Positions 1 through 41,154 of a DNA stretch of 41,154 nucleotides are shown in pieces. Source of the DNA: a virus; IMG/VR virus record IMGVR_UViG_3300047409_000179, positions 1-41,154 of that record; one strand, 5' to 3'. The translations under genes were made by a program, and so were the position numbers. Position 1 is the stretch's first letter; the number at the start of each line of letters is the position of its first letter. The notes beneath the pieces were generated by a model. The model was not told the DNA's origin and did no database searches. It worked only from the letters and a program-made list of their open reading frames with translations.

Positions 1-127
1 GCCCATCCTTGCAACCCGCCCTGGAGCAGAGCCGGGTCGTCGTCGGACCCTCGCCGGCCTTACTGCTGCGCTGGACAAGAGCTCCCGTCGAGGTCTTCGG
101 CTGGTAGTCGAAGTCGCTCAGCGTCCG
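1..127. repeat. terminal direct repeat, left copy
   Basis: Identical base for base to the last 127 bases of the window. An exact 127-bp overlap at both ends is what de Bruijn assemblers leave when a contig closes on itself with k=127, so this is most likely an assembly overlap and not a biological terminal repeat. The unique genome is then 41,027 bp. Confidence 0.95.
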
Positions 128-166
128 CATCAGCAGAATCAACGACTCGAACTCGGCGAAGATCAC
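1..166 (-). CDS. zinc-finger protein, N-terminal part (gene crosses the contig join)
   Basis: This is the start of a 255-residue protein whose remainder lies at 40,426-41,154. The GTG start (164-166) overlaps the TGA of the upstream gene as GTGA, and a GAGAGG Shine-Dalgarno lies four bases upstream. The first 55 residues are encoded here, up to the contig edge. The frame continues past base 1 into the other end of the contig after removing the 127-bp duplicate. No function is recognised from this part alone. Confidence 0.85.
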   Translation of the reverse strand, partial: MIFAEFESLILLMRTLSDFDYQPKTSTGALVQRSSKAGEGPTTTRLCSRAGCKDG

Positions 167-462
167 GCGACCTCTCGCAAACGAGCCCGTTTTCGCTCCC
201 TGGCCAACTCCCTCATCAGCTTGCGCTTGAATTTCTCCGAAGGTGATCTGAAACCGCGCTTTTGACCACAGGAGCTGCACTGCCAGATAGGCCCGGTTGC
301 CGAGATCCAGTGCCGGCCACACTCGGTGCAGGTCCAGCCGTGACAGGTTGCCGCTGGGGAGTAGCCGCGGACGTCGAGGCGATGGCTCTTTGGGGAAGCG
401 GGCTGAGAGGAGACGATATTCATCTGGGCTTCTAGCCGAGGGCGGCGGGAGCGGATAGTCAC
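163..462 (-). CDS. small zinc-ribbon protein
   Basis: A 99-residue protein with two CxxC knuckles (CTECG and CSSCG, about residues 45-73), as in a zinc ribbon, followed by a strongly basic C-terminal tail rich in Arg and Lys. This suggests nucleic-acid binding. The GTG start overlaps the TGA of the preceding gene (GTGA); an internal ATG at residue 14 is an alternative start. It sits in the early operon among other small zinc proteins. The family is not recognised, and DNA or RNA binding is inferred only from the zinc ribbon and charge. Confidence 0.75.
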   Translation of the reverse strand: MTIRSRRPRLEAQMNIVSSQPASPKSHRLDVRGYSPAATCHGWTCTECGRHWISATGPIWQCSSCGQKRGFRSPSEKFKRKLMRELARERKRARLREVA

Positions 463-647
463 TTAGCGTTCCCCTCGTTCATCTGCTCCAGAGCGCGGCG
501 AAGCCAATCGACCGCTTCGATGAGCAAGGGAATCGCAGCTACTCCCTGGCCGAGTCCGTAGGTCTTGTCGAGTGCCTTCCGAGCCGCGGCGACGCACTCT
601 CTTGGGGGAACCCGATTCCGCGCAGCTTCGGAAGGAAGCCAGGGCAT
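459..647 (-). CDS. hypothetical small early protein
   Basis: A 62-residue protein beginning MPWLPSEAARN. The ATG overlaps the TGA of the upstream C2H2 gene (ATGA at 644-647). An in-frame extension to 731 would run antiparallel to no sense and overlap the real upstream gene, so the short start was chosen. The C-terminal half is helical and amphipathic (IEAVDWLRRALEQMN). No known family is recognised; context suggests only an early accessory role. Confidence 0.65.
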   Translation of the reverse strand: MPWLPSEAARNRVPPRECVAAARKALDKTYGLGQGVAAIPLLIEAVDWLRRALEQMNEGNAK

Positions 648-868
648 CACGCTGCTCGAACTCCGTGGACGTTCTCGAGGTGTTCGGTGATGGTGGTAGT
701 ACCAGGCGGTTTCAGTCCGCACCGAGGGCACTGGTCTCCGGACTGCGGCTTGTCGTCGGGTAGCGCAGCTAGGCCACGCTGCAGATCCGCCAGCCGAGTT
801 TTGATGCCGGTTAGGTCCTTCTGCAGTTCCTTAGCGATGTTCTCCAAATCTGAGCGCGAATACGCCAT
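647..868 (-). CDS. C2H2 zinc-finger protein
   Basis: A 73-residue protein. Its N-terminal half is a short helix with heptad spacing (ENIAKELQKDLTGIKTRLADL). The C-terminus has CPRCG followed by HLENVH, giving C-x2-C-x12-H-x4-H, a classical C2H2 finger. The ATG overlaps the upstream TGA (ATGA). A coiled coil plus one finger suggests a small dimeric DNA-binding protein. Its role in the phage cycle is unknown. Confidence 0.75.
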   Translation of the reverse strand: MAYSRSDLENIAKELQKDLTGIKTRLADLQRGLAALPDDKPQSGDQCPRCGLKPPGTTTITEHLENVHGVRAA

Positions 869-1353
869 CAGTGTGACCGCAGTTCTGGAGCTACAAACGG
901 TGTGCTGTCCGCGACGTAGCTAGCTTCGGCTTGAACAGCAAACCGCTCTTCATTCTCAGAAGAACTTGAACCCGAACCCAGACTACGAGTACGAACACGA
1001 TCCCGAGGGGGTGCCGGTTTTGGTGACGGTTCTTGTGACGCTTTTGGTGACGCTTGTCGTGCCCTCCATCGGCGCGTTCGCTCAGCGCTTGTCGCGTCCT
1101 TTGGCACGTACTCTGACCAGTCGTGTACCTCGTGGCATCCATTGACGCGATCCAGTAGTCCAAGCTCAGCGAAGCGTTGGATCCGCTTCGGTGTGAGGCC
1201 GGCGATCTCGCGACGTGTCTTGGCGTCGACGGTTGGATCCTCGATCTCCGCGCAGTGACAGAGCAAGCGCACCCAGGTTCGGAACTCGGCATCACTCAGC
1301 TCTACGATCTTGCGATTGCGCGGGAAGCGATCCTCGAGGCGGACCCAGCTCAA
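868..1353 (-). CDS. phage replication-initiator-like protein (replisome organizer N-terminal type)
   Basis: A 161-residue protein. The first 80 residues match the winged-helix N-terminal region typical of phage replisome organizers: MSWVRLEDRFPRNRKIVEL, then a helix with FRTWVRLLCHCAE. These proteins bind the origin and recruit helicase. The tail after residue 90 is low-complexity (Pro, Lys and Ser), so the protein is shorter than usual initiators and lacks the usual C-terminal helicase-loading part. The TTG start overlaps the upstream TGA and has a GGGGAG site five bases away. It is the only replication-like gene visible in the genome. Confidence 0.6.
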   Translation of the reverse strand: MSWVRLEDRFPRNRKIVELSDAEFRTWVRLLCHCAEIEDPTVDAKTRREIAGLTPKRIQRFAELGLLDRVNGCHEVHDWSEYVPKDATSAERTRRWRARQASPKASQEPSPKPAPPRDRVRTRSLGSGSSSSENEERFAVQAEASYVADSTPFVAPELRSH

Positions 1354-1610
1354 TCGGGCTCCCCGGCTGAATCGGGGGTGTGGAGGGCGGCGAGGGCTTC
1401 ACGCAATCTGCAAGAGAGGCAGTCTCCGGCGACGATTAGGTGCCGCTTTGAATGACCACCGTGGGCGTCGTCGTTGTTTTCAATCGCTTGCGCCGCCTCC
1501 ACCACCGCGAGCAGCGCCCGCAGATCCATGTTGTCAATGAGCGTGTGCGTACCGGATCGAGATAGGACGGTCAACTGCTCCACCACGCTCCCTGCTTCGG
1601 GGCTACCCAC
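1350..1610 (-). CDS. hypothetical early protein with C-terminal CxxC
   Basis: An 86-residue protein with a helix LRALLAVVEAAQAIEN and a C-terminal DCLSCRLREAL motif, a pattern common in actinophage early genes of unknown function. The GTG start lies in a repeated junction sequence that also starts the gene at 1,957, and both proteins begin MGSPEA. An internal GTG at 1,583 has a better Shine-Dalgarno (AGGGAG, five bases) and could be the main start. Confidence 0.65.
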   Translation of the reverse strand: MGSPEAGSVVEQLTVLSRSGTHTLIDNMDLRALLAVVEAAQAIENNDDAHGGHSKRHLIVAGDCLSCRLREALAALHTPDSAGEPD

Positions 1611-1615
1611 GGGCC
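1594..1615 (-). repeat. gene-junction repeat B, copy 1
   Basis: A 22-base sequence identical to 1,941-1,962. On the minus strand it encodes the last codons of one gene (Arg-Gly-stop TAG) and overlaps a GTG start giving MGSPEA in the next. Confidence 0.85.
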
Positions 1616-1806
1616 GAGAAGAACCTGTCCACGAGTCGCTGAAGCCAAGGCCAGTGACGCGGTGCCTTCATCGGAGTGGCTTCGACCCAGCCGCGTTCAG
1701 GGTCGAACTTTTGATTGCGCGCGAGCTGTGCTTTTGCCGCTTCGCTGTTCCCAGCGCGAATATCGGCACGCAGTAACGCGCGCTCAAAGTTAGGGTCACG
1801 TTCCAT
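1603..1806 (-). CDS. hypothetical early protein
   Basis: A 67-residue protein starting MERDPNFERALLRADIRAG. The ATG at 1,804-1,806 was chosen because AGAGGAGG lies four bases upstream; a longer TTG start at 1,854 would overlap the preceding gene fully. It has a basic, helical middle and a Trp-rich end (HWPWLQRLVDRFF). No family is recognised. The start overlaps the end of the upstream gene by 11 bases. Confidence 0.65.
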   Translation of the reverse strand: MERDPNFERALLRADIRAGNSEAAKAQLARNQKFDPERGWVEATPMKAPRHWPWLQRLVDRFFSARG

Positions 1807-1957
1807 CGTCCTCCTCTGCTCGTTCGCTGTTGGCCCACAACTCGGCATAGACAAGATCCGCGCTCCCGCCGCCCTCGCAGCGTCTCAACGCGCTCAGTAG
1901 AAGCTCACCGCTGATCGCGTGCCAGCCGAGATCCGGGGCGGCTTCGGGGCTACCCAC
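1796..1957 (-). CDS. conserved-looking small phage protein (53 aa)
   Basis: A 53-residue gene beginning MGSPEAAPDLGWHAISG and continuing with LLLSALRRCEGG and LVYAELWANSE. The pattern WHAIxGELLLxALRR followed by VYAElxANS resembles small early proteins in many actinophages. The GTG overlaps the TAG of the upstream gene inside junction repeat B. It is encoded between two other genes in a different frame and would be missed by length cut-offs of 60 residues. Function unknown. Confidence 0.7.
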   Translation of the reverse strand: MGSPEAAPDLGWHAISGELLLSALRRCEGGGSADLVYAELWANSERAEEDDGT

Positions 1958-1962
1958 GGGCC
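1941..1962 (-). repeat. gene-junction repeat B, copy 2
   Basis: Exact 22-base repeat of 1,594-1,615. Here too it joins a gene ending in Arg-Gly-TAG to one starting GTG with MGSPEA. Confidence 0.85.
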
Positions 1963-2171
1963 TGCACCCTCTCTTGACGAGCCACGCCCTGCTGGAAGCC
2001 GTCTTGGACTCCTCGCACGTACGCCTTCCGAACAGCCTCCTCGTACGCAGCCACGAACGGCATTCGGAACGCCCTCAGGTCGCGGTCAACTTCGCGATCC
2101 AGCATCGAGAACAGGTCGGTGGTGCGTTCGTCCATGACAACGCTGTAGATCGTCGGGCCTGCACCACTCAC
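1950..2171 (-). CDS. hypothetical early protein
   Basis: A 73-residue protein from a GTG (2,169-2,171) that overlaps the upstream TGA as GTGA. It contains helical segments LDREVDRDLRAF and YEEAVRKAYVRGVQDGFQQG, the latter a pattern seen in small phage proteins of unknown role. The longer in-frame start at 2,216 would overlap the upstream gene. Ends in Arg-Gly-TAG within junction repeat B. Confidence 0.65.
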   Translation of the reverse strand: MSGAGPTIYSVVMDERTTDLFSMLDREVDRDLRAFRMPFVAAYEEAVRKAYVRGVQDGFQQGVARQERVQARG

Positions 2172-2449
2172 GCCTCCTCCTCCCGCCCCCGGACTTCGCG
2201 CTTCCAGCACGTCCACCAGCCCGCGATAAACCCTTCGTATTCGCGGCTCGTGCCATCGGCCCAGCCGAGTTCCTCCGCCGCCTCTGATGCTCGCAGTTGA
2301 AGCTCTGCTCCATGCGCCGTGTCTTCCCGCCCCTCAGCGCCCAGGGCAAACCGCTGACATTCCACATGATGATGGGTGGCTCTTTCGTCGGAGTCACAAC
2401 AGGTTCGAGGTCGCCGGTTCGGGCGGTCTGCTTCGGGGCTAGTCGGCAT
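2168..2449 (-). CDS. hypothetical early protein
   Basis: A 93-residue protein beginning MPTSPEAD, its ATG overlapping the upstream TAG inside a variant of junction repeat B. A Cys pair near residues 17-18 and HHHVEC suggest possible metal binding. The C-terminal half has AAEELGWADGTSREYEGFI and acidic EEEA. A competing frame (2,086-2,397) is rejected because it breaks the overlap chain and is Arg-rich. Function unknown. Confidence 0.55.
   Translation of the reverse strand: MPTSPEADRPNRRPRTCCDSDERATHHHVECQRFALGAEGREDTAHGAELQLRASEAAEELGWADGTSREYEGFIAGWWTCWKREVRGREEEA
2430..2449 (-). repeat. gene-junction repeat B, degenerate copy 3
   Basis: Shares the core TAGCCCCGAAGC (minus strand) with copies 1 and 2 and again overlaps a stop TAG and a downstream start, giving an N-terminus with SPEA. 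The start codon is ATG instead of GTG. Confidence 0.7.
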
Positions 2450-2591
2450 CGGCCACCCGACTCAGTTTCTTGGCGTGCCGCCGGATCATCACTTCGATCT
2501 CGTCCTGGGCCTTCACGAGCCGCAGTTCGCGGTTGTGGAGACGCCTCTGCTTGTTGACCAGCAACTGAATCCAGAGGCTTCTAAGGCTCAC
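2439..2591 (-). CDS. small basic helical protein
   Basis: A 50-residue protein starting MSLRSLWIQLLVNKQRR from a GTG that overlaps the TGA of the HNH gene (GTGA). It is one continuous basic amphipathic helix (LRLVKAQDEIEVMIRRHAKK). The upstream extension to 2,708 overlaps the HNH gene and is not used. No family recognised. Confidence 0.6.
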   Translation of the reverse strand: MSLRSLWIQLLVNKQRRLHNRELRLVKAQDEIEVMIRRHAKKLSRVADAD

Positions 2592-3055
2592 GCCTCCTCC
2601 TCGCTCTGCTCGGGTAGGGCTCCCTCTTGTGGGTGGAGGGCTGCGCGCCGAGCCGCTCGAGCAGCTCGTTTGCGTGCCCTGTAACGCTGGTTCGACTTCT
2701 CCTGACACGGGCGGCAGATGCGATCTCCCTGCGCCTTACGACGTTCAAGCGGATGCCCGCAGTTACGGCAGTGGGTCTTGCGCCGGTTGTGCAGATCACC
2801 CCGAGTCGTGTTCTCCGCGTTCGTCACGGGCTCCATGTGCTCGGGGTTGACGCAGTTCTTGACCCGGCAAAGGTGGTCGATCTGCAAGCCGTCTGGAATC
2901 GGACCGACCAGGGACTCGTAGGCGAAACGGTGCGCGTAGACCATGCGACCCTCGTTCCAAAAGGTGCCGTAGCCCTTGCCGGTCGTCGCGCCGACCCAGA
3001 GCCAGCAGGATTCGGTCTTCTCTACCTTCGGCCAGAAGCGATCAGTCGCCAGCAC
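2588..3055 (-). CDS. HNH homing-type endonuclease with zinc-ribbon tail
   Basis: A 155-residue protein with the HNH_3 pattern: SCWLWVGATTGKGYGTF, then YAHRFAYE, DHLCRVKNCVNPEHMEPV and ENTTR. The H-N-H residues lie in the beta-beta-alpha metal fold. A C-terminal zinc ribbon (HCRNCG and CRPCQ) and an Arg-rich tail follow. Start chosen at GTG 3,053-3,055 with GAGG six bases upstream; the frame is open further but overlaps the coiled-coil gene. Paralogous in the core domain to the HNH protein at 7,929-8,447. Probably a free-standing mobile endonuclease that nicks or cuts DNA. Confidence 0.85.
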   Translation of the reverse strand: MLATDRFWPKVEKTESCWLWVGATTGKGYGTFWNEGRMVYAHRFAYESLVGPIPDGLQIDHLCRVKNCVNPEHMEPVTNAENTTRGDLHNRRKTHCRNCGHPLERRKAQGDRICRPCQEKSNQRYRARKRAARAARRAALHPQEGALPEQSEEEA

Positions 3056-3311
3056 GAAGTTCCTCAAGCTCGCGTTGCAGTCGATCCCTCTCGGCCTTCG
3101 CTTCCTTGAGCGCGTTCGTCCAGTTGCGGCTTGACCAGTTGAGCGAATCGAACTGCCGCTGAATCTCGTCCCTCTCGGCCTCGACCTGTTCGAGTTGGCG
3201 GGCAAGCTTGTCGCGCTGTTCGCAAGCCAGCACGTAGGCGCTCGCAAGAGCATCCGGCGTATCGAAGAACGCGATGGCCTCCTCGACAACCTGCGAGCGG
3301 TCAGCGCCCAT
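3042..3311 (-). CDS. coiled-coil protein, paralogue of the gene at 3,779
   Basis: An 89-residue protein starting MGADRSQVVEEAIAFF. Residues 30-89 form a coiled coil (KLARQLEQVEAERDEIQRQF and AKAERDRLQRELEEL). It shares the QVVEEA start and the QLRRQLEQV-ERDE block with the gene at 3,779-4,183, also at DNA level (17 identical bases over the N-terminal block). The ATG overlaps the TGA of the upstream membrane protein. Function unknown; it may oligomerise. Confidence 0.75.
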   Translation of the reverse strand: MGADRSQVVEEAIAFFDTPDALASAYVLACEQRDKLARQLEQVEAERDEIQRQFDSLNWSSRNWTNALKEAKAERDRLQRELEELRAGD

Positions 3312-3403
3312 CAGCGAGCCTTCCAGAGACAGAACGCGACGAACACGAGCACGACTAGGGCGATGATGCCGTCAACCAGCAGCACGAGATTCTCCTCAGC
3401 CAT
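3311..3403 (-). CDS. micro membrane protein (30 aa)
   Basis: Thirty residues: MAEENLVLLVDG followed by one transmembrane helix (IIALVVLVFVAFCLW) and a basic end. The ATG follows GAGGAGCCGAGCG in junction repeat A. A longer frame to 3,505 lacks a ribosome site and overlaps the upstream gene. One of several single-helix micro-proteins in the genome. Confidence 0.65.
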   Translation of the reverse strand: MAEENLVLLVDGIIALVVLVFVAFCLWKAR

Positions 3404-3566
3404 CGCTCGGCTCCTCGGTGGGCCACTGAACGGCTCGACGGCCATCGTGAGCAATGTGCGGCCCGTCGTGACCACGGCGCAGTTCGCAGTGGAAGGCTCG
3501 GCCATGCGGCGCGCGGTTCCAGACGAACGTACTGGCCGGGCACGGCTTCCGGAACCATCTACGCAT
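3396..3566 (-). CDS. small His/Cys protein, possible metal binder
   Basis: A 56-residue protein from MRRWFRKPCP. The core has HCELRRGHDGPHIAHDG, a pattern C-x5-H-x2-P-H common in small actinophage proteins and probably metal-binding. It ends TEEPSDG, encoded by junction repeat A. The ATG (3,564-3,566) is preceded by another copy of the same repeat. Role unknown. Confidence 0.7.
   Translation of the reverse strand: MRRWFRKPCPASTFVWNRAPHGRAFHCELRRGHDGPHIAHDGRRAVQWPTEEPSDG
3401..3418 (-). repeat. gene-junction repeat A, copy 1
   Basis: Minus-strand CCGAGGAGCCGAGCGATG. It encodes the C-terminal EEPSD of one gene and supplies the GAGGAG ribosome site and ATG of the next. Also at 3,564, 4,181 and 4,362. 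Confidence 0.85.
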
Positions 3567-3777
3567 CGCTCGGCTCCTCGGGCTGGGCGGGTTCACGCTC
3601 GGCGCGCCAAAGCGCGAGCAGGCCCTTCGCCGCTTTTGCCATCGTCTCTAGCTCGTAGGCGGGATCAGTCCACTGCTTCGGATCTTCGATGGCAGCGGCG
3701 ATGAACTCCTCCAGGTCGGAGGGCTCGAAGCCGATTTCATCGCAGAGCAGATGTGTTTCTTGTCCTGTCAGCGGCAC
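3559..3777 (-). CDS. hypothetical acidic early protein
   Basis: A 72-residue acidic protein (MPLTGQETHLLCDEIGFEPS) with a helix ELETMAKAAKGLLALWRAER and the C-terminal tag AQPEEPSDA. GTG start, with AAGGAG seven bases upstream inside the end of the preceding gene. No family recognised. Confidence 0.65.
   Translation of the reverse strand: MPLTGQETHLLCDEIGFEPSDLEEFIAAAIEDPKQWTDPAYELETMAKAAKGLLALWRAEREPAQPEEPSDA
3564..3581 (-). repeat. gene-junction repeat A, copy 2
   Basis: Same 18-base sequence as copy 1. Together with the copy at 4,181 the identity extends to 27 bases, encoding AQPEEPSD at the end of the upstream gene. Confidence 0.85.
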
Positions 3778-3778
3778 T

Positions 3779-4183
3779 TCACACGCTCCTTTGGGTTCGC
3801 CATTCCTCGAACGCTTCGCTTAGACCGCGAGCGGAAATGAAGTCGTAGGCCACCTCGCGCTCCTCAGCGGGATCTACTAACGCCTCTCCCTGCTGGGCGG
3901 GTTCCGTGGCGGGGAGGGCGGCGTCGAGCAGCGCGTCGAGGTTGCGGTGAGAGTTCTCTCGCGACTGCTGATCTTCGCCGGGATGCGTCTCAAGGCCGAG
4001 CGACCAGCGCAGTAAGTGATGCCGAGTCGCCTCCTCGTCCCTCTCCCCCTTGACCTGTTCGAGTTGGCGGCGCAGTTGAGCGATTAGCTCCTGGTCTTCC
4101 TGAAACCGGGTCTTGCTCATGCCACGCTCCTCGCACTCTTGATTGGCCCATGCCTCCTCGACAACCTGGGGGCGGTTAGTCAT
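3779..4183 (-). CDS. coiled-coil protein, paralogue of the gene at 3,042
   Basis: A 134-residue protein. The N-terminus MTNRPQVVEEAWANQECEER and the block LIAQLRRQLEQVKGERDE match the shorter neighbour at 3,042-3,311, but the C-terminal halves differ. ATG follows junction repeat A (GAGGAGCCGAGCG). It appears to be a duplicated N-terminal module joined to a different tail. Coiled coil around residues 28-55; no enzymatic motif. Confidence 0.75.
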   Translation of the reverse strand: MTNRPQVVEEAWANQECEERGMSKTRFQEDQELIAQLRRQLEQVKGERDEEATRHHLLRWSLGLETHPGEDQQSRENSHRNLDALLDAALPATEPAQQGEALVDPAEEREVAYDFISARGLSEAFEEWRTQRSV

Positions 4184-4364
4184 CGCTCGGCTCCTCGGGC
4201 TGGGCGGTCTGTAGCGAGATCGTCACCGTCAGGACGACGTTCGGATCGTGCTTGACGTGCGCCATGTAGACCTGGCAGAGACGCGCCGATGCTTCCTTCC
4301 ACGCACCGAGAATGCCCCGCCGCTTGCGGCAGTCCACTGAGATCACCTGCGATTCGAGATTCAC
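4176..4364 (-). CDS. hypothetical small early protein
   Basis: A 62-residue protein starting MNLESQVISVDCRKRRG and ending QTAQPEEPSDD. The GTG (4,362-4,364) overlaps the upstream TGA and follows GAGGAG of junction repeat A. A longer start at 4,472 and a competing frame at 4,180-4,419 are rejected as Arg-rich overlaps. The middle is a helix plus strands (VVLTVTISLQT). Function unknown. Confidence 0.6.
   Translation of the reverse strand: MNLESQVISVDCRKRRGILGAWKEASARLCQVYMAHVKHDPNVVLTVTISLQTAQPEEPSDD
4181..4198 (-). repeat. gene-junction repeat A, copy 3
   Basis: Third identical 18-base junction, the ribosome site of the gene at 4,183 and the EEPSDD terminus of the gene above it. Confidence 0.85.
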
Positions 4365-4774
4365 TCGCTCGGCTCCTCGGTGGGGTAGGCGACGAGAAGA
4401 TTGAGCCACGCGAGAACATCGGTCGCAGTCAGCAGCATCAGAGAACGGTTCGGCTCGGGTACTTCCTCCCACGACACGGCGCTCTCGTCACGCGTCTTGT
4501 AGCCCACAGTGCCGGCGTTGCGCTCGTAGCTGTGGTGGAAGAAGCGTGCAAGTTCTTCCGCACTCGGAAGCGCCCGCTCCTGCGCGGCTTGGAGAGCGTC
4601 TTCAAGCCGGGAGATCTCGTCCATAGCATCCTGGATCACGTCGCTCGCGTCCTTCCGATTCTCGTAGAACAGTGACGCGGATACGGCGTCCAGGTCTTTC
4701 GTCAGCGCATTGGGTCTCAACTCAATCCCTTCGTCGGTGACGTGCTCGGGGCCGTGGGTGCCGTCGGGGTTCAC
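4361..4774 (-). CDS. conserved phage protein with helical domain
   Basis: A 137-residue protein starting MNPDGTHGPEHVTDEG. Residues 70-130 hold a motif frequent in phage early proteins: LARFFHHSYERNAG followed by WEEVPEPNRSLM and TATDVLAWL. A coiled segment lies before it. GTG overlaps the upstream TGA. Its first codons repeat those of the upstream zinc protein (NPDGT). Ends TEEPSE in junction repeat A. Function unknown. Confidence 0.7.
   Translation of the reverse strand: MNPDGTHGPEHVTDEGIELRPNALTKDLDAVSASLFYENRKDASDVIQDAMDEISRLEDALQAAQERALPSAEELARFFHHSYERNAGTVGYKTRDESAVSWEEVPEPNRSLMLLTATDVLAWLNLLVAYPTEEPSE
4362..4380 (-). repeat. gene-junction repeat A, variant copy 4
   Basis: Differs from the other copies only at the start codon: one extra base gives GAGTGA so that the next gene begins at GTG. 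Encodes the C-terminal TEEPSE. Confidence 0.75.
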
Positions 4775-4971
4775 CAGATCCTCTGATCTCGCCGCTTGCC
4801 AGTTCCACCGCAGGCGTGGCAGTTATGCAGTGTCTCGGGGCATGTCAACAGCGGGTCAGCCCCGTCGTCACAAGTTCCTTCGCCACCGCAGTGAGTGCAT
4901 TCGAGCTCGTAGCCGAAGTCGTCCACGTACAGGTCGTCCTCCTGGGTGCCGTCGGGGTTGCGCTCGGTCAC
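4771..4971 (-). CDS. DnaJ-type zinc-finger protein
   Basis: A 66-residue protein with two Cys clusters, ELECTHCGGEGTCDDG and CHACGGTGKR, the CxxCxGxG spacing of the DnaJ zinc domain, plus C44. Similar small proteins are common in actinophages. GTG overlaps the upstream TGA. N-terminus MTERNPDGTQ shares the NPDGT block with the downstream gene. It may bind unfolded protein or nucleic acid. Confidence 0.75.
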   Translation of the reverse strand: MTERNPDGTQEDDLYVDDFGYELECTHCGGEGTCDDGADPLLTCPETLHNCHACGGTGKRRDQRIW

Positions 4972-5582
4972 GCTGCTGCCTTGGCCTCAGTGGCTCGTGC
5001 GATCGACAAGAGCTCATCCCGGAAGGCCGGCGGGGTCTTGTCGAGCAGGGCGGCACTCAGCCGAGGGCGATCCTTATTAGGCGCGCCTTTGTAGAGATAG
5101 CTGCCCCATTTAAACTCGCCACCTTCCGAGTCGATGCGTCGGCCCCAGCGCAGCTTTGGGAGAACCTCGACGCCGGAGGCGTAGAGCCATGTCGCCTTCC
5201 GCATCGGCAAGCCATAGCGCCCCTGCTCGACGTAGCAGGACGCATCACCATCGAGCAAGCTCACCGTCCAGCCAACTGTTGAGCGGGGCTTGACGAGATC
5301 GAAGGCGTCCCAAGCGAGCGAGTCAGCAGGATGCTCGAGGACGCCGCCCCACATCCTGACTGCTCGCAGCGCTGCCTCGAAGCAGCCACCGTCATCGCCG
5401 ACGCGGTAGCCGTGCAGTTGCTCAACTTGCTTGGCGAACCGACACCAGCGCTGACAGGGCGGATGCGCCACCACAGGCCACGGGCCGTCGTAGAGACGTG
5501 CGTCCCGTTCCTCGTCCCAGGGGTCGACGTCATCGAGCCCGTAGTAGATGCCGTTCGTCTCTACGTAGAGGGCGGCGATCAC
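4968..5582 (-). CDS. C5-cytosine-methyltransferase-like phage protein
   Basis: A 204-residue protein. WPVVAHPPCQRWCRF resembles motif IV (PCQ) of C5 DNA methyltransferases with the catalytic Cys. GVLEHPADSLAW resembles the EN motif VI region, and GRYGLPMRKATWLYASG the later strands. The N-terminal SAM-binding FxGxG motif is not evident, so activity is uncertain. Start GTG overlaps the TGA of the upstream gene (GTGA); extension to 5,708 would overlap it. It sits next to an MT-A70 methyltransferase two genes up, consistent with DNA modification against host restriction. Confidence 0.6.
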   Translation of the reverse strand: MIAALYVETNGIYYGLDDVDPWDEERDARLYDGPWPVVAHPPCQRWCRFAKQVEQLHGYRVGDDGGCFEAALRAVRMWGGVLEHPADSLAWDAFDLVKPRSTVGWTVSLLDGDASCYVEQGRYGLPMRKATWLYASGVEVLPKLRWGRRIDSEGGEFKWGSYLYKGAPNKDRPRLSAALLDKTPPAFRDELLSIARATEAKAAA

Positions 5583-6049
5583 AGCCCGCACAATCCCCGT
5601 GTGCCCCAGGGCGAGAAGCCTCGAGCCCCGTAGCCGTGGTATCCGTGGTAGGCCCGGTACGCCGCCACCATCTGCGCCCATACCTCCCAGTGGCCGGCCG
5701 AACCCCATAGGCCCATGTATTCGCGGCCGTAGGTCGACTGGAAGCCGTCATCGAACTGCAAGCCTCCGTGGTACCCGTTCCCAGTTTCGCTCGTCCATGC
5801 ACCTTCGTGCGAGTGCAGGCACATGAACGGGTGGTACACCCCGGCCAGGTGGAGGCCGCGCCAGACACGCCGTTGGGCGCGCTTTGCCACTTCAGCACGA
5901 GAGCCACGAGTACCTGGCCGGGGATTTCGCTCGAGCCAGACCAACACGGCCGAGCCACGTTCGGTCATACGAATCGGTGAGCGTGCAGCGTCAGCTCGGG
6001 CTATCCAGAGAGCCCAGCCGATAGTCATCACGAGGGCGAGCGTCAACAA
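5579..6049 (-). CDS. secreted Rpf/lysozyme-like muralytic protein
   Basis: A 156-residue protein with an N-terminal hydrophobic segment (residues 2-20, signal peptide or anchor). Residues 75-156 match the transglycosylase fold of resuscitation-promoting factors: CLHSHEGAW with Glu82 as likely catalytic acid, TGNGYHGGLQFDDGFQ, and Cys77 and Cys154 able to form a disulfide. It likely cleaves peptidoglycan outside the membrane. TTG start at 6,049; an ATG at 6,028 is an alternative. Unusual in an early operon and far from the amidase endolysin. Confidence 0.75.
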   Translation of the reverse strand: MLTLALVMTIGWALWIARADAARSPIRMTERGSAVLVWLERNPRPGTRGSRAEVAKRAQRRVWRGLHLAGVYHPFMCLHSHEGAWTSETGNGYHGGLQFDDGFQSTYGREYMGLWGSAGHWEVWAQMVAAYRAYHGYHGYGARGFSPWGTRGLCGL

Positions 6050-6051
6050 CT

Positions 6052-6657
6052 TCAGGATTCCGTTCCTGTCGCCGCTTGCAGGTCGACGTGCTGTAGTGCT
6101 TCGTTACCCCACGTATCCCAGCCCAGCCGTTGGCGGCGGGCGAACATCTCGAGGCGGGGTGCGGGGGAAATCGCCTCGGCGAGATCCATAAAGGCGTCCG
6201 GCTTCTGCGAGTGGTAGCCCCGGCCCTGGCGCGGCCAGTTGAACCACACTGAGTCCACGCGGGAGAGGTTCTTGAGCGAGCCGCGACGAGCCGTGAGGAC
6301 GTATTCGCAGGTAGGCGCGAACGCACCGCCCAGGTTGATCCCCATCGGAGTCTTCGCCCAGACGAGCGTCTGCCCGTACCGGAAGCCCCAGGCGTCGAGC
6401 ACGTCGAACGCAGTCCGCAGATACTTGTTCGTCGTCCAGAGGTAGAGATGACAACCGCCTCTCTCGGCCATCTCGCCGACCGGCAACGCCTTGATCTCGT
6501 CCAGCGTCATCGCCGGATACGGGAGCGGCTTGCGCGTCTTGAGTTGCACCTCGACGCCGTCGCGTACCGCCATGCGCTCTCCGTCACCACCAGGCAGCCG
6601 GCCCCATCCCTCGGGGTAGGGCCACGGCGGATCAGCAACGATCGTCCGGTACCTCAC
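6052..6657 (-). CDS. MT-A70 family adenine methyltransferase
   Basis: A 201-residue protein with the DPPW catalytic motif at residues 9-12 (TIVADPPWPYP). CHLYLWTTNKYL and GFRYGQTLVWAKT follow, and HSQKPDAFMDLAE contains the conserved KP of MT-A70 enzymes. It transfers a methyl group from SAM to N6 of adenine, in phage usually in DNA. No cognate restriction enzyme is adjacent, so it looks like an orphan enzyme for antirestriction or regulation. GTG overlaps the upstream TGA. Confidence 0.9.
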   Translation of the reverse strand: MRYRTIVADPPWPYPEGWGRLPGGDGERMAVRDGVEVQLKTRKPLPYPAMTLDEIKALPVGEMAERGGCHLYLWTTNKYLRTAFDVLDAWGFRYGQTLVWAKTPMGINLGGAFAPTCEYVLTARRGSLKNLSRVDSVWFNWPRQGRGYHSQKPDAFMDLAEAISPAPRLEMFARRQRLGWDTWGNEALQHVDLQAATGTES

Positions 6658-6995
6658 TGCTCCCCAGCCTCCGGGTGGTGCTCGGCAAGGGGCTCTACAG
6701 CCGCCAGCGCGCCGTCTCGATAGCCCTGCCAGTAGGTGTAGCCCTCACCGGTAGCGGTCTTCATGTTTCTCTCGGCTAGACCGTGAAGGTCAAAACCGCG
6801 CCTGCCGATTTCCCGCTCCCGTTCCTCCGCAGCCTCGGCGCGGGCGAGTAGGGCGAGGATGACCGTGGCCGCGAGCTTATCGGCGTCTTGGTCGCACCAT
6901 GCGATCTCGCCGTTCGATGCGAGCACGTCATACGCGATCTGCTTCGCCTCCTCGAAGTCCACGCCCTGGCGGGGTTCGGTCATGGGGTCGGTCAC
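6654..6995 (-). CDS. hypothetical early protein
   Basis: A 113-residue protein from a GTG (6,993-6,995) overlapping the TGA of the 37-residue zinc gene. Two parts: a helical region FEEAKQIAYDVLASNG and LAATVILALLARAEAAEERE, then GEGYTYWQGYRDGALAAVEPL. The last motif occurs in many phage small proteins. No function known. Confidence 0.65.
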   Translation of the reverse strand: MTDPMTEPRQGVDFEEAKQIAYDVLASNGEIAWCDQDADKLAATVILALLARAEAAEEREREIGRRGFDLHGLAERNMKTATGEGYTYWQGYRDGALAAVEPLAEHHPEAGEQ

Positions 6996-7105
6996 TTCTC
7001 CACCTGGGCCTTGCAGATAGCGCAACACGGAACCCGCTTGCCGAGCACCTCTCTGATCCGTTGCCTCGGCAGCGCGCAGACAACGCAGTTGCCCTTCTTC
7101 GCCAT
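6992..7105 (-). CDS. micro zinc protein (37 aa)
   Basis: A 37-residue protein with CVVC near the N-terminus and CCAIC near the C-terminus, a two-knuckle zinc-binding arrangement, separated by a basic helix (RQRIREVLGKR). ATG overlaps the upstream TGA and its own TGA overlaps the next GTG, so it fits the translational chain precisely. The main start lies within another longer, unused frame. Confidence 0.7.
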   Translation of the reverse strand: MAKKGNCVVCALPRQRIREVLGKRVPCCAICKAQVEK

Positions 7106-7293
7106 CACTTGATCCGGTAGCAAACGACGTGTCGAGGAATGAAGTGGATGGTCTTGGCGTCGGCATCACCCGGAGGCACGGAGCGGGTGTCGTCGCCGGC
7201 CATCGGCTCGAAGCTCTCGAAGTCGGGCAGCTCCGGCACCGTGACCTCGGAGCCGTCCGAGAGCGTCAGCAGGTAGTAGGTGTATTCGCTCAT
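7105..7293 (-). CDS. hypothetical small early protein
   Basis: A 62-residue protein starting MSEYTYYLLTLSDGSEV, with strands and an acidic middle, ending HFIPRHVVCYRIK. Looks like a small beta-barrel or Sm-like fold but this is a guess. ATG preceded by AAGGAG seven bases upstream and overlapping the previous TGA. The longer frame to 7,401 is not used. Confidence 0.65.
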   Translation of the reverse strand: MSEYTYYLLTLSDGSEVTVPELPDFESFEPMAGDDTRSVPPGDADAKTIHFIPRHVVCYRIK

Positions 7294-7496
7294 GCGGGGT
7301 CTCCTTTGGTGGCCTCGGCTGTGGCCGAGTCCTGTGTCTCGGACTCCGGAAGTCTGGGGAGCGTCCAACCGCCGCAGCGAAGCTCGCGGGCTACAAGCCA
7401 TTCGAGCGTCCGCATCCGGGCCGAGTGGTCGAGCGGGGCCATCGCGCGGTCGAAAGCGCGGATGGACTTGATCTCGGGATCAAGTGCTGTGGTCAT
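7290..7496 (-). CDS. conserved small phage protein
   Basis: A 68-residue protein. DPEIKSIRAFDRAMAPLDH followed by ARMRTLEWLVAREL is a pattern found in many phage and host regulatory small proteins, with a helical bundle. ATG overlaps the upstream TGA; its TGA overlaps the next ATG. Function unknown. Confidence 0.65.
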   Translation of the reverse strand: MTTALDPEIKSIRAFDRAMAPLDHSARMRTLEWLVARELRCGGWTLPRLPESETQDSATAEATKGDPA

Positions 7497-7936
7497 CCCG
7501 TACTCCTTTCGTAGAGCTTGTCGGCCTCGATCCGCTTGACGAACTCCCGGCAGCGCTCAGGAATCAGTGCGTCGGGAACCCGCAGTGCGTAAGAGTCATG
7601 GAGCTGGTGATGGGCCCTGCAAAGCGTGAAAGCGCTGGCTGGCGAATAGACCACGTCTGCGCCGTAGCCCCGCTTTCGGAGCGTGTGCTTGCGAAGAATG
7701 TGGGCAGCTTCCAGGGGGCCATCACAGCCGGCGTTCCGGCGTTCCGGTGGACGCGCCGGGATGACCGTCTTTCCTGTCGACGGGTCTTCCATTGCCGGCG
7801 AGGAGAAAGGTGTGCCGCGGCTCATCACGCACTGATGACCATCTGCATCGAGCACGGCCAGCTTGAAGGTCAGCCGTTGCTCGGGTGTGCCGAGGGCGCG
7901 GCGCCAGGGCTTGCGACGAAGCGGAGTCCTACGCAT
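7493..7936 (-). CDS. HNH endonuclease-like protein
   Basis: A 147-residue protein with basic N-terminus MRRTPLRRKPWRRAL and a Cys at HQCVMSRG. The HNH-like core is LEAAHILRKHTLRKR followed by SAFTLCRAHHQLHDS. This resembles phage HNH proteins that process DNA, recombination-type (NinG-like) more than homing-type, because it lacks NUMOD or AP2 modules. ATG overlaps the upstream TAG. Confidence 0.7.
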   Translation of the reverse strand: MRRTPLRRKPWRRALGTPEQRLTFKLAVLDADGHQCVMSRGTPFSSPAMEDPSTGKTVIPARPPERRNAGCDGPLEAAHILRKHTLRKRGYGADVVYSPASAFTLCRAHHQLHDSYALRVPDALIPERCREFVKRIEADKLYERSTG

Positions 7937-8447
7937 CGACCCAACTCCTGCCCGCCCGGATGTGCGAGATGTTTGACGGATCTACGCCAAGTAGTTCGGC
8001 CAGCTGGGAGTTGCCGAGAGGCGATCGCCTGACGAAGGCGACCTCGGCCTGCGAAAGCTTCGTGGCCCGACTCCGGCGCTTGTTCTCAGTTGGAGTGACT
8101 GGCTCAAGATGATCCGGGTTGACGCAGCTCGGATTTCTACAGAGATGATCGAACTCGAGACCTTCGGGTGTCGGACCATGCCTCAGCTCATAGAAGTAGC
8201 GATGAGCCGCCTGGGTTCGACCACCGCGCGTGATACGTCCATAGCCGGCGCGGTCCCGCTTGAGCTTCCAAATCCAACATCCGTTTGCGTCTACCTCGTA
8301 GCCAGTTGCGGGGGCAGGAGACTTTCTGTGGTTGTGCCCCTTGAGATATGGGACAGGCTCACCCGTTATGTATTCGCGAGTCGAATCATTGCGCGCAGCA
8401 ATCGTCGTAGGACTTCCGCAACCGCACTGACAGAGACCGCGCTTCAC
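7929..8447 (-). CDS. HNH homing endonuclease with C-terminal HTH
   Basis: A 172-residue protein. N-terminal CQCGCG zinc motif. The HNH_3 core has GCWIWKLKRDRAGYGRI, AAHRYFYELRHG, DHLCRNPSCVNPDHLEPV and ENKRR. After residue 130 LSQAEVAFVRRSPLGNSQL and ELLGVDPSNISHIRAGRSW make a helix-turn-helix that probably gives DNA specificity. GTG overlaps the upstream TGA. Paralogous to 2,588-3,055. Confidence 0.85.
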   Translation of the reverse strand: MKRGLCQCGCGSPTTIAARNDSTREYITGEPVPYLKGHNHRKSPAPATGYEVDANGCWIWKLKRDRAGYGRITRGGRTQAAHRYFYELRHGPTPEGLEFDHLCRNPSCVNPDHLEPVTPTENKRRSRATKLSQAEVAFVRRSPLGNSQLAELLGVDPSNISHIRAGRSWVDA

Positions 8448-8641
8448 GCTGCGGCCCTCGGCTCGGGTTCGTTACCTGCCCCCGCCACCTCACTGCTGAG
8501 GCTCGCCAAAGTCCCGAGGGCCGCAGCTACTTGTTCACGCGCGCGCGCGAAACTGTGTTGCCAAATCTGAGTACCGTGGCAAACACCAGTTCGATTCTGG
8601 TCGGCGCCTTGAATCCCAAGGACTCCCTGCAAATCGGCCAC
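8444..8641 (-). CDS. hypothetical small protein overlapping the putative attP
   Basis: A 65-residue frame starting MADLQGVLGIQGADQNRTG with a helical alanine-rich C-terminus (AREQVAAALGTLASLSSEV). GTG overlaps the upstream TAG (TAGTG) and its TGA overlaps the next GTG, arguing that it is translated. The plus strand of its N-terminal half carries a tRNA-like T-arm and acceptor strand. Phage integration at this site would therefore split the gene. The short length and this overlap leave doubt. Confidence 0.45.
   Translation of the reverse strand: MADLQGVLGIQGADQNRTGVCHGTQIWQHSFARAREQVAAALGTLASLSSEVAGAGNEPEPRAAA
8558..8610 (+). other. attP: putative attP core: tRNA-gene 3' end
   Basis: Bases 8,585-8,601 form a perfect T-arm: five-pair stem ACCAG/CTGGT with loop TTCGATT, fitting the invariant GTTCRANNC pattern. 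CGGCGCC (8,602-8,608) follows as a possible acceptor 3' strand. No matching GGCGCCG 5' acceptor strand is present upstream, so this is a 3' fragment and not a full tRNA. An inverted repeat TTGCCA/TGGCAA (8,558-8,563 and 8,577-8,582) precedes it. Tyrosine-integrase phages commonly integrate into tRNA 3' ends and carry such a copy near int, which ends 230 bp away. Confidence 0.6.
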
Positions 8642-8841
8642 TATTGGAAATCCTTGGCTCCGGTGTGTTTCCGTAGCCACTGGAAGCGCGGGCGTTCCAC
8701 TATGTAGCCACCCGGAATGCCAATGAGCCAATCGTTTCTGCGAAGTGTTGGCGGTGGCACGTAGCGCCATTCCGGGAACTCGCCTTCCACGCGGCCCCGC
8801 GCGACGATTCTGGTCGTCAGGATCTTGCGAACCGACCTCAC
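8641..8841 (-). CDS. hypothetical small protein downstream of integrase
   Basis: A 66-residue basic protein (MRSVRKILTTRIVARGR) with FPEWRYVPPPTLRRNDWLIG and IPGGYIVERPRFQWL, beta-rich. GTG overlaps the integrase TGA, so it is cotranslated with int. It could be an excisionase-like or accessory factor by position, but no HTH is visible. Family unknown. Confidence 0.6.
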   Translation of the reverse strand: MRSVRKILTTRIVARGRVEGEFPEWRYVPPPTLRRNDWLIGIPGGYIVERPRFQWLRKHTGAKDFQ

Positions 8842-9758
8842 AGCTGCCCCTCAATCAGCGCCAGATCAGCAACCAGGTCGCGCGTGTCTAGATGCCCGTA
8901 GAGGTCGTAGGTGATCGCCAAAGACGAGTGGCCCATCGCCGTCGAGAGGGTCGTAATTCGTCCACCCCGGCGCAGCCAGCGAGTAGCGAAGGTGTGGCGC
9001 GTCGTGTGCGGGTTGCGGTAGCGGACGCCCGATGCCTTGATGCAGCGCCTCCACCACGTATCGAAGGAGGTGTCGTTGGCCGGCTTCTCACGCGCGATCT
9101 TTGAGCCACCTCCGGGACGTGTGTACCAGAGGAAGTCGCTCGGCCTCAGACCGTCGAGGACGGCGAGCTCGTTCACCCGTTGAGAGACGGCGAGCGTGGC
9201 CGGGATGACGCGATCCTTGCCGCCCTTGCCTTTCAAGACCACGACCTCACCTGGTGCGGGATTGGCCCGAAGGTGCAACAAGCGGAAGTTGCGCGCCTCG
9301 GCCTTGCGTAGCCCAGAGTCGAAGAGCAGCTGCATCAGCGCTCCATCGCGGATCGGCAGATCCTCGAGAATGGAGATCTCCTCGTCCGTGAAGACGTCGA
9401 TCACCTTCTGCTTGGCCTGCGCCATCTCCGGAAGCACGTCGGTCGGGTTGACCGTGACGCGACGGGTCCTGAGCGCCCACTTGTAGAACGACTTCCAGGC
9501 AGCGCAGCGATAACGTCGTTCCCCGTCCTTGAAAGCAGCGGCGACGTGCAGCATCTCTGAGTCACCGAACTCCTCGAGCCCGTGGTTCGGGAACATCAGA
9601 CAACCCCGTGCGAGGTCCCGCTCATATTGCTCGAGCGTTCGCGCCGCAGCCCCACCCATCTTCTTCCAGGCCAGGAAGTCGACCACGTCGCGTCCCAGCC
9701 TGGTGGACTGGTACGTCTTGTCTAGCAGGGGGTCGTACTCTACGCGCAGCGCGCTCAT
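8838..9758 (-). CDS. int: tyrosine site-specific integrase
   Basis: A 306-residue protein with a SAM-like N-terminal core-binding domain (about residues 18-105) and a catalytic domain with the full set of residues: Arg151 in DSGLRKAEAR, Lys around 179-181, His251-x-x-Arg254 in HTTRHTFATR, His277 in AMGHSS and the nucleophile Tyr287 in YDLYGHL. There is no N-terminal arm-binding domain of the lambda type, so it is closer in size to XerC/D-like phage integrases. ATG overlaps the upstream TGA (ATGA). It mediates integration at attP/attB and marks the phage as temperate. Confidence 0.95.
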   Translation of the reverse strand: MSALRVEYDPLLDKTYQSTRLGRDVVDFLAWKKMGGAAARTLEQYERDLARGCLMFPNHGLEEFGDSEMLHVAAAFKDGERRYRCAAWKSFYKWALRTRRVTVNPTDVLPEMAQAKQKVIDVFTDEEISILEDLPIRDGALMQLLFDSGLRKAEARNFRLLHLRANPAPGEVVVLKGKGGKDRVIPATLAVSQRVNELAVLDGLRPSDFLWYTRPGGGSKIAREKPANDTSFDTWWRRCIKASGVRYRNPHTTRHTFATRWLRRGGRITTLSTAMGHSSLAITYDLYGHLDTRDLVADLALIEGQL

Positions 9759-28355: not shown

Positions 28356-29528
28356 TTAGCAGCCTTGCTGCCAGGTGCTTGGCACGCTCCCTGTGTTGCC
28401 GCAGAAGATCGAGTTCGTGACGGGGCGCGGGGGATCAAAGCCGGTCACGGACAGGTCAAAGCGGTTGTTACGGAGAGCCCAGCCGGTGATCGAGCCCTTG
28501 GCGACGTTCGTGCCGTTGTTCGAGGTCCCGACGTCGCCGACGTGGACCGACTCGTACATGATCCCGCCGCCGAGCGAGTAGGTGACGCCGAACTGGTTGC
28601 CCTCGAGCGTGACGTTGCCATAGGCGGGCGGAAGCGGACTCCACCAAGAGCCGTAGGTAAAGAGCACGTCGAAGACCGCGCAGTTGGTGAAGGTCGAGTT
28701 GCGGATCGTCATGAAGGGCACGACGATCGCGTAGAGACACTCGAGGTGTACCCCGTCCGTCTTGATGACCGCGTCGTGGAAGCGCACGTTGTCGAAGACA
28801 AGGTGGTCGCCGTCGACAAGCGCGGCCTTCTCGTCGGCCACGTTGCCGATGCTCATGTTCAGCCACTTGTCACGGTTTCCGCCACCGTTCTCGACGCAGG
28901 CACCGCTCGACTTGACCCCGCCGCAGTCCACGTTGAGGCTGTCGAAGGTGAGGTCGGGCGAGCCGGAGTGAATCCCGCGCACGACGTTGCCCGTGACGCC
29001 CTTAAAGGTGAGCACCTTCGTTCCCGAGCCCTGACTCGACTGGTAGCCGCCGGCGAAGTTCTGCGAGGAGGAGAGCGTGCCGCTGACGCCGACCACGTCG
29101 CCCGACTGCGCGGCAGTGTAGGCCGCGGCGAAGCTCGCGCAGGAGACGCCTGCCGTGAGGATCACCGGAGTCGCGGAGCGCGAGCAGCCGCCAGCGCCAG
29201 GCGAGACCCAGAGATTCGCCGTGCCGGTCGGTGGAGGCGGCGGCGGCGGGGGAGGAGGAGGCGGCGGGGCCGTAGTCGTTCCGACCGTGGTCGTGACCGT
29301 GACCGTCTGCGTGACGGTGTCATGGACGGTCGTCGTCGGCCCCGTGACGGTCTGATCGGTGGCGGTGACGCATTCGCCGGGGATCTCGCCTAGCGGGTTG
29401 CCGTTGTCCGCGATCGTGTGGGTCGGCGTGCAGGCGACGTGCTCGCCGGGAGAAAGCGCCAAGGTGGCAGCTGCGAAGCCTCCCGCTCCGAGCAGACCGA
29501 GCGCGGAGACTGCTAGCCAGCGACGCAT
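28356..29528 (-). CDS. secreted parallel beta-helix protein with polyproline linker
   Basis: A 390-residue protein. Signal peptide in MRRWLAVSALGLLGAGGFAA. Residues 55-90 are Thr/Val-rich (TVTQTVTVTTTVGTTT), then 13 consecutive prolines. Residues 105-390 form a pectate-lyase-like right-handed beta-helix (LTFKGVTGNVVRGIHSG, LVFDNVRFHDAVIKTDGVHL and VTLEGNQFGVTY). The domain order resembles secreted proteins of soil Actinobacteria, so transfer from a host is likely. Why a secreted protein sits among head genes is unclear; it may degrade capsule, or the N-terminus may be a virion tether. Confidence 0.8.
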   Translation of the reverse strand: MRRWLAVSALGLLGAGGFAAATLALSPGEHVACTPTHTIADNGNPLGEIPGECVTATDQTVTGPTTTVHDTVTQTVTVTTTVGTTTAPPPPPPPPPPPPPTGTANLWVSPGAGGCSRSATPVILTAGVSCASFAAAYTAAQSGDVVGVSGTLSSSQNFAGGYQSSQGSGTKVLTFKGVTGNVVRGIHSGSPDLTFDSLNVDCGGVKSSGACVENGGGNRDKWLNMSIGNVADEKAALVDGDHLVFDNVRFHDAVIKTDGVHLECLYAIVVPFMTIRNSTFTNCAVFDVLFTYGSWWSPLPPAYGNVTLEGNQFGVTYSLGGGIMYESVHVGDVGTSNNGTNVAKGSITGWALRNNRFDLSVTGFDPPRPVTNSIFCGNTGSVPSTWQQGC

Positions 29529-40429: not shown

Positions 40430-41154
40430 GCCGCCGCCTTCTCCGATTCCACTCGCTCCCGCCTTCGCTTCTCGAACTGCGCCGCCCAGCTCGGCACCCG
40501 GATCTCCTCGGGCATCCGGTGTCGGACGAAGCGTAGACCGAACCCCGTCTCGAGCGCCTCCTCGATCCGCAGATCGTCAACCTCGCGCTCGGCCAAGACG
40601 AAGGTGCCGACTACGAGCCGGTAGCGGGATCGCTGCTCGAGCCGCAACAGCGTAAGCGCCAAGGCGAGCTCATCATAGCTTCCTTCCTCTTGCCGGCGCA
40701 CCATGCAGGTGACGATCGGATCGCCGCCGCTCACCTCGAGCACCGCGCTCGTTCGCGGCGAAGTACGCCAGGGCCGGATCGGGTGTCGTGGTGCCGGCAC
40801 GAGCTTCGCACCCCAGCAGCGGCGGCAGGTGTTCGTCAGATCCTCACCGAGTCGCCACCAAACGCTCTTGCCTGATCCTCCGCACTCGTCACAGCGAACC
40901 ATGCGCTGAGTCTTGTCACCGCGTTGCTCTTCGGTTTCCACCCTGCTCTCGGTGTAGGCGTCGACGATCTCGACCCCGGTGCCTCGACATGACTCGCAGA
41001 ACCGCTCGATGCCGCGGACACGAATACGCCCATCCTTGCAACCCGCCCTGGAGCAGAGCCGGGTCGTCGTCGGACCCTCGCCGGCCTTACTGCTGCGCTG
41101 GACAAGAGCTCCCGTCGAGGTCTTCGGCTGGTAGTCGAAGTCGCTCAGCGTCCG
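40426..41154 (-). CDS. zinc-finger protein, C-terminal part (gene crosses the contig join)
   Basis: The C-terminal part of the 255-residue protein whose start is at base 166. Cys pairs CESC (about 66-69), CDECGGSG (101-104) and CRRCWGAK (123-126), plus Cys47 and Cys52, resemble a DnaJ-like zinc domain. The C-terminal half is helix/strand with RYRLVVGTFVLAEREV. The 127-bp contig duplication overlaps its N-terminal region. Function unknown; DNA or protein binding is likely. Confidence 0.8.
   Translation of the reverse strand, partial: RTLSDFDYQPKTSTGALVQRSSKAGEGPTTTRLCSRAGCKDGRIRVRGIERFCESCRGTGVEIVDAYTESRVETEEQRGDKTQRMVRCDECGGSGKSVWWRLGEDLTNTCRRCWGAKLVPAPRHPIRPWRTSPRTSAVLEVSGGDPIVTCMVRRQEEGSYDELALALTLLRLEQRSRYRLVVGTFVLAEREVDDLRIEEALETGFGLRFVRHRMPEEIRVPSWAAQFEKRRRERVESEKAAA
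41028..41154. repeat. terminal direct repeat, right copy
   Basis: Exact copy of bases 1-127. A single reading frame continues without a stop from 41,154 into base 128 of the left end, which supports joining the ends into a circle. Confidence 0.95.

Follow-up and report, generated by a model that had tools for sequence, protein, structure and literature searches.

Repeated gene-junction sequences as likely boundary sequences of a cassette-like small-gene array in a virus genome

Introduction

It has long been asked whether phage mosaics are the product of homologous exchange at short borders or of illegitimate joining. The question is raised by IMG/VR virus record IMGVR_UViG_3300047409_000179, a soil phage analyzed here over its whole length of 41,154 nucleotides (the window), in which several families of short sequences recur at the junctions of small genes. 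Here, we characterized these repeats (hereafter tags), compared them with those of two relatives and asked what they are for. Our results suggest that the tags are likely to act as boundary sequences in a cassette-like array, at which small genes are gained, lost and replaced.

The termini of the window (1-127 and 41028-41154) are identical over exactly 127 bp, so the genome is probably complete and circular, with a size of about 41,027 bp (consistent with circular assembly at k = 127). The genes discussed are on the minus strand, and the tagged region is flanked by an integrase gene (8838-9758) and a replication-initiation-like gene (868-1353). From this place between integrase and replication gene, we infer that the array is expressed early.

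Repeat families at gene junctions

A preliminary description of this DNA had listed three families of junction repeats, all of which were present at the places given, whereas a fourth family (D) and a 13-bp repeat (GAACCCGCCCAGC, at 3582-3594 and 3892-3904) had been overlooked. Family A (CCGAGGAGCCGAGCGATG, minus strand) is exact at 3401-3418, 3564-3581 and 4181-4198 and has two mismatches at 4363-4380; no further copy with three or fewer mismatches was found in the 41 kb (shuffles give 0.11 expected). Family B is a 22-bp sequence, exact at 1594-1615 and 1941-1962 (0.00 expected), and its core (TAGCCCCGAAGC) is additionally present at 2430-2441. No copy of either family was found in the 41 kb outside 163-9758. 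Family C (AACCCCGACGGCACCCA, 17 bp, at 4755-4771 and 4943-4959) starts proteins with MNPDGT and MTERNPDGT, and family D (GAGGAGGAGGCGTGAG, at 2167-2182 and 2587-2602) encodes EEEA* together with a GTG start. The tags and the genes that they join are as follows:

1594-1615, minus strand: family B tag; ends gene 1603-1806 (SARG*), starts gene 1350-1610 (MGSPEA)
1936-1962, minus strand: family B tag; ends gene 1950-2171 (QARG*), starts gene 1796-1957 (MGSPEA)
2167-2182, minus strand: family D, second copy; ends gene 2168-2449 (REEEA*), starts gene 1950-2171
2425-2459, minus strand: family B core tag; ends gene 2439-2591 (RVADAD*), starts gene 2168-2449 (MPTSPEA)
2587-2621, minus strand: family D tag; ends HNH gene 2588-3055 (ALPEQSEEEA*), GTG start of gene 2439-2591
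3401-3418, minus strand: family A tag; ends gene 3396-3566 (EEPSDG*), starts gene 3311-3403 (ATG)
3564-3590, minus strand: family A tag, 27-bp form; ends gene 3559-3777 (QPEEPSDA*), starts gene 3396-3566
4181-4207, minus strand: family A tag, 27-bp form; ends gene 4176-4364 (QPEEPSDD*), starts gene 3779-4183
4363-4384, minus strand: family A variant; ends gene 4361-4774 (PTEEPSE*), GTG start of gene 4176-4364
4711-4771, minus strand: family C right copy and extension; starts gene 4361-4774 (MNPDGTHGPEHVTDEGIELRP)
4943-4971, minus strand: family C left copy; starts gene 4771-4971 (MTERNPDGT)

All copies of families A-C are located at an overlapping stop/start junction or at most 12 nt after a start codon, and window-wide copy scans, compared with shuffles, did not find the motifs away from gene starts. 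More generally, the region 163-9758 contains 12 exact repeats of 14 bp or longer, all same-strand, versus 0.375 on average and at most 2 in 40 dinucleotide shuffles. Nearly all of them touch or adjoin a gene start, compared with 13% of random 14-mers; the two that are not at starts (110 and 15-18 bases inside) both belong to the coiled-coil pair 3042-3311/3779-4183. When junctions were called mechanically, as a start lying -6 to +11 from the stop of another frame, the coding strand yielded eight repeats of at least 16 bp with each copy at a junction (0.11 expected), and the opposite strand yielded none.

Coding geometry of the junctions

The overlap between genes at the tagged junctions is 4 bases (GTGA), 8 bases (such as ATGGCTGA or GTGGGTAG) or 11 bases. 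A family A tag comprises the upstream C-terminus EEPSD or EEPSE, GAGGAG just 5' of the start and the next start itself. Which residue closes the upstream protein (D, A, G or E) is dictated by the first-codon bases of the next gene, so the common C-termini seem to be a side effect of DNA that is shared. The copies of family A all use the same synonymous codons (P = 8e-6; six copies, genome codon usage), as do those of family C (P = 3e-7), which argues for copied DNA and not for convergent peptides. In families A and D, a Shine-Dalgarno core closely precedes the start, whereas the identity of families B and C lies at and after the start codon, with at most a weak Shine-Dalgarno sequence at family B junctions. 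Folding of the tags does not surpass that of shuffles (z -0.64 to 1.07), and no unusual hairpin was found in them.

The same tags around different genes in a relative

Exact IMG/VR searches with families A and B yielded two relatives from one metagenome, G1 (3300045303_000377, L005) and G2 (3300045303_000045, L110/L121). The early region of G2 contains four joints of the window with their order kept, at 94-100% DNA identity. The joint ALPEQSEEEA (window 2591-2621) matches at 31/31 bp, RVADAD*/MPTSP (2425-2459), which in G2 lies between two other genes, at 33/35 bp, and ARG*/MGSPEA (1936-1962) at 26/27 bp. The fourth joint is a second MGSPEA, after which the two genomes share a gene:

1354-1611, minus strand: gene 1350-1610, whole-length homologue in G2 (85% DNA), anchor past the last tag

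The G2 genes between the joints have no similarity to window genes, and they are fewer, with a single gene in slots that hold two in the window. In the 40-base flanks of the G2 joints, only 7-13 of 40 bases agreed, which is the chance level (6-14 of 40 for all main G1 and G2 tag blocks). By tblastn, the head proteins of G2 and the window are 28-48% identical and some tail genes 66-88%; given such head proteins, joints at 94-100% DNA identity are not a matter of ordinary descent alone. The preliminary description had proposed to search related phages for motifs that flank different genes in the same relative place, and G2 offers such a case.

In addition, the C-terminal half of gene 647-868 (638-731) matches the C-terminus of a larger G2 gene, 1644-2105 (2021-2112), which is another sub-gene mosaic joint.

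Empty and filled sites in a second relative

Apart from patches of the tagged region, a single tail gene (86% protein identity) is all that G1 has in common with the window. At the joint of family C, 29/29 bp (4943-4971) and 61/61 bp (4711-4771) are identical to G1, which is continuous there over 73 bp; the window matches these at 73/73 once a 188-bp segment is left out. Three segments of the window are absent in G1:

4772-4959, minus strand: 188-bp segment, the body of gene 4771-4971 and one 17-bp repeat
3595-3904, minus strand: 310-bp segment, the end of gene 3779-4183 and most of gene 3559-3777, between 13-bp copies of GAACCCGCCCAGC
3419-3581, minus strand: 163-bp segment, gene 3396-3566, between 18-bp family A copies

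The family A copy at 3401-3418 is the right repeat of the 163-bp insert relative to G1. With the 310- and 163-bp segments taken out, the window is identical to G1 at 147/151 positions, and the block 4361-4400 at the family A variant is identical at 34/40. The alignment would fit gain in the window as well as loss in G1. That a relative would lack gene-sized inserts held by the window between direct tag repeats is what border recombination predicts, and G1 agrees with it. Together, the G2 slots and the G1 direct-repeat inserts support the earlier proposal that small genes may be swapped by recombination at standard borders.

A start codon was touched by 10 of the 13 short blocks that the window has in common with G1 or G2, versus 2.5 expected. 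Neither circular shifts of more than 60 nt nor 20,000 random placements reached this count, although the 13 blocks are not all independent because family A copies match each other. A run of WDAA/RDAA repeats was also observed in G1 (about 4995-5250), in a gene just upstream of the tagged region.

Most bodies of the flanked genes were without similarity at E 0.05. The exceptions are genes 3042-3311 and 3779-4183, which share patches (36% over 84 aa, E 2e-6), and the family C gene of G1, which shares patches with window gene 4361-4774. The earlier statement that the gene bodies are unrelated therefore holds for most genes and needs correction for these; apart from the one partly related pair, the flanked genes are not homologous over their whole length.

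Junction repeats in other loci

Further relatives were collected by protein homology to gene 4968-5591 (phrog_12600) and not by tags. In one of these, L018, a 35-bp tag (GCCGAGTCTCCTGATAGGAGCGAACAGTGAGCGGG) occurs in five copies, 83-100% identical to the reference copy. It ends five different proteins, integrase included, in PDRSEQ or PDRGEQ/PDRSEE and starts the next gene, with the Shine-Dalgarno core just upstream of the start. The window homologue of a tagged L018 gene carries a different joint, so the joint belongs to the genome rather than to the gene. Over the 18 homology-found loci, 10 repeats of at least 16 bp had both copies at junctions versus 1.95 expected (maximum 7 in 1,000 simulations). 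Three of these come from L018, and the excess is smaller in the unrelated loci (6 versus 1.04); hence, these counts suggest, and do not prove, that tag arrays are general beyond the group of the window. It should be noted that this detector missed the published Island3 repeat (PMC3029335), which is inexact and not at an overlapping junction, and therefore underestimates such cases.

Within the L018 tag (region 1954-4482), a short inverted repeat (CTCCTGATAGGAG) might let the Shine-Dalgarno core base-pair with a CTCCT upstream of it; the whole tag folds no better than shuffles. Another element, CGCCTAGCGGAT(TCGAA), was observed near gene ends in L018 (about 2640-2720, and 3178), L019 (about 9960) and L022 (10617, 10769 and 12476). 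Its reverse complement looks like a tRNA T-arm and acceptor stem, and L018 also has an inverted copy of the element.

Other searches yielded few relatives. The protein of gene 3779-4183 gave none, and that of gene 1350-1610 gave G2 only in IMG/VR and none in genomes. Eight other contigs from the exact family A search were rejected as chance matches, the 18-mer being intragenic or without a stop/start junction, and most of the 68 family C matches look like chance likewise. L107, a family B match outside G2, had no second tag in the stretch read. Thermoleophilia genomes gave many weak DNA matches, mostly of 25-70 bp and best at the HNH domain, which were attributed to chance or gene homology and not to tags. 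No cultured phage with the tags was found (HNH and gene 4968 matches only), and there were no plasmid matches.

Proposed mechanism and alternative explanations

Each tag (13-35 bp) runs from the last codons of the upstream gene through the stop/start overlap to the first codons of the downstream gene, and often takes in the Shine-Dalgarno sequence. A tag common to two co-infecting phages, or to two places in one genome, would provide homology for DNA exchange. Exchange at the tag could then replace, add or remove whole small genes, while both reading frames and the stop/start overlap would be kept and translational coupling would be retained. We infer recombination as the cause, whether of an annealing type, by RecA or by short-repeat slippage.

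Several observations weigh against boundary sequences as the explanation. The window's own tags are present in two relatives only, both from one metagenome; no phage annealase was recognised among the window proteins scanned; and 13-18 bp is short for RecA. At the 163-bp site, the right flank is supported by only 5 bases, where the G1 contig stops. Moreover, 26- and 33-bp coiled-coil patches and the following patch start inside genes, off the borders:

3894-4019, minus strand: 126-bp patch within gene 3779-4183, which matches G1 at 123/126 positions and stops at the 13-bp repeat

Other explanations of the repeats should also be considered. Conserved start-associated motifs occur in actinophage clusters K and EF, and families A and D and the L018 tag hold a Shine-Dalgarno core just 5' of the start; the tags might accordingly be translation-start elements of the Cluster K start-associated sequence (SAS) type, perhaps bound by a factor, with recombination incidental. 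We regard this as unlikely, since identity in families B and C lies at or after the start and family B has at most a weak Shine-Dalgarno sequence, no motif is common to all families, identity runs into the upstream codons (up to 27 bp), the window lacks the SAS consensus, and neighbouring genes with a good Shine-Dalgarno sequence carry no tags. It would also leave the inserts between direct repeats unexplained. These inserts could be accommodated if the genes were relics of tandem duplication, with diverged bodies and similar ends, and if G1 had lost copies by direct-repeat slippage: deletion between short direct repeats would yield the G1 structures, and genes 3042-3311 and 3779-4183 share internal patches. 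However, most bodies are dissimilar at E 0.05 though their ends are identical DNA, the different G2 genes in the same slots need replacement and not loss alone, and one C-terminus is carried by five L018 proteins including integrase, which makes duplication a decidedly improbable source of the array.

That EEPSD and PDRSEQ are each common to several different proteins might point to functional peptides, such as a tail or docking signal, under protein-level selection. We consider the chance of this very small: in family A the final residue varies with how the next gene begins, the copies use the same synonymous codons, and family B and C tags encode N-termini instead. An assembly artefact, by which contigs of different phages were joined at short repeats, might be suspected from the fact that both the end of G1 and the beginning of G2 lie inside the tagged region. 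It seems scarcely credible, as the 127-bp end overlap suggests k = 127, far above the tag length, four family A copies stand in one contig with reading frames intact, and joining at a tag presupposes that the tag exists in several gene contexts.

Boundary sequences of a cassette-like array thus remain the likely explanation. If so, the borders of phage exchange are here visible, repeated, and seen both empty and filled, and their geometry would explain how genes are swapped while neighbours are spared. The array makes the question of border exchange directly testable in a laboratory phage. A wider idea, that the small-gene arrays of many actinobacterial soil phages are cassettes with genome-specific standard joints kept for evolvability, is put forward tentatively and is rather doubtful. 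If true, an entering gene would take the local joint (C-terminal tail, ribosome site and start), and later homologous exchange would always give in-frame, coupled genes.

Array and genome context

Family matches were obtained for the following genes in and beside the array:

868-1353, minus strand: replication-initiation-like gene, downstream of the array (phrog_3926, 7e-15)
2588-3055, minus strand: HNH endonuclease gene within the tagged array (Pfam HNH_3)

The first contains a 12-bp degenerate tandem repeat (1011-1058) in a proline/lysine-rich stretch. The second is a paralogue (51% over 69 aa) of HNH gene 7929-8447, and a third HNH gene lies at 7493-7936. The terminase gene (37557-39017) lies past the contig ends from the tagged region, and the order from the early region to terminase is alike in G2. 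A tail-adjacent gene without a family match (28356-29528) shows 86-88% protein identity to G1 and G2 and has distant homologues (31-32%) in Solirubrobacter soli and S. taibaiensis, which are the only pointer to a host.

Comparison with known systems

The preliminary description had pointed to the Cluster K SAS as a precedent. SAS and ESAS are conserved sequences at the starts of non-structural genes in Clusters K and EF (PMC3203893, PMC7302621); the Cluster K SAS is found mostly in intergenic gaps, its genes lying mostly more than 50 bp from the upstream gene. Both are start-linked sequences on genes of different families, and families A and D have the SAS-like place a few bases 5' of the start and the Shine-Dalgarno core. 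In contrast, the tags of the window overlap genes, differ in sequence, fall into several unrelated families and extend their identity into coding sequence; families B and C lie at or after the start, and the SAS consensus (GGGATAGGAGCCC, two or fewer mismatches) had 0 matches in the window. The comparison is apt only in part for the start position and the Shine-Dalgarno core, and fails for the consensus, the gene spacing and the multiplicity of families. Integron cassette arrays are alike in layout only, with gene-sized units parted by recurrent borders, whereas the tags here are without an attC-like hairpin and vary between genomes, and no dedicated integrase was found. As for recombination systems, lambda Red recombines diverged DNA, with joints mostly in longer identical blocks (PMC2327257).

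A closer precedent than SAS is the boundary-sequence model together with Island3 genes 67/68. The model is reportedly of lambdoid origin, with work on HK620. It places short conserved sequences at phage module borders (cited in PMC3029335), although such sequences are invisible at most mosaic joints (PMC3029335). Island3 differs from Brujita by a small additional gene, the product of which ends in the same 18 residues as that of the gene before it (Pope et al., 2011; PMC3029335), and the repeat of about 50-60 bp at genes 67/68 marks the insertion/deletion and was tied to the boundary-sequence model (PMC3029335). The window resembles the model in having short border sequences between non-homologous modules, the proposed sites of homologous exchange: four ordered tags border non-homologous genes in G2, and insertions or deletions relative to G1 are bounded by direct border repeats (73/73 and 147/151). 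It differs in that several families are repeated in one genome and overlap both coding ends, and in that the tags separate single small genes and not large modules. Whereas Island3 represents one event, the window has several tag families, shorter repeats, and insertions as well as replacements in two relatives. Given its likeness to Island3 and the boundary-sequence model, and only in part to SAS, the array is a richer, array-scale form of a known idea.

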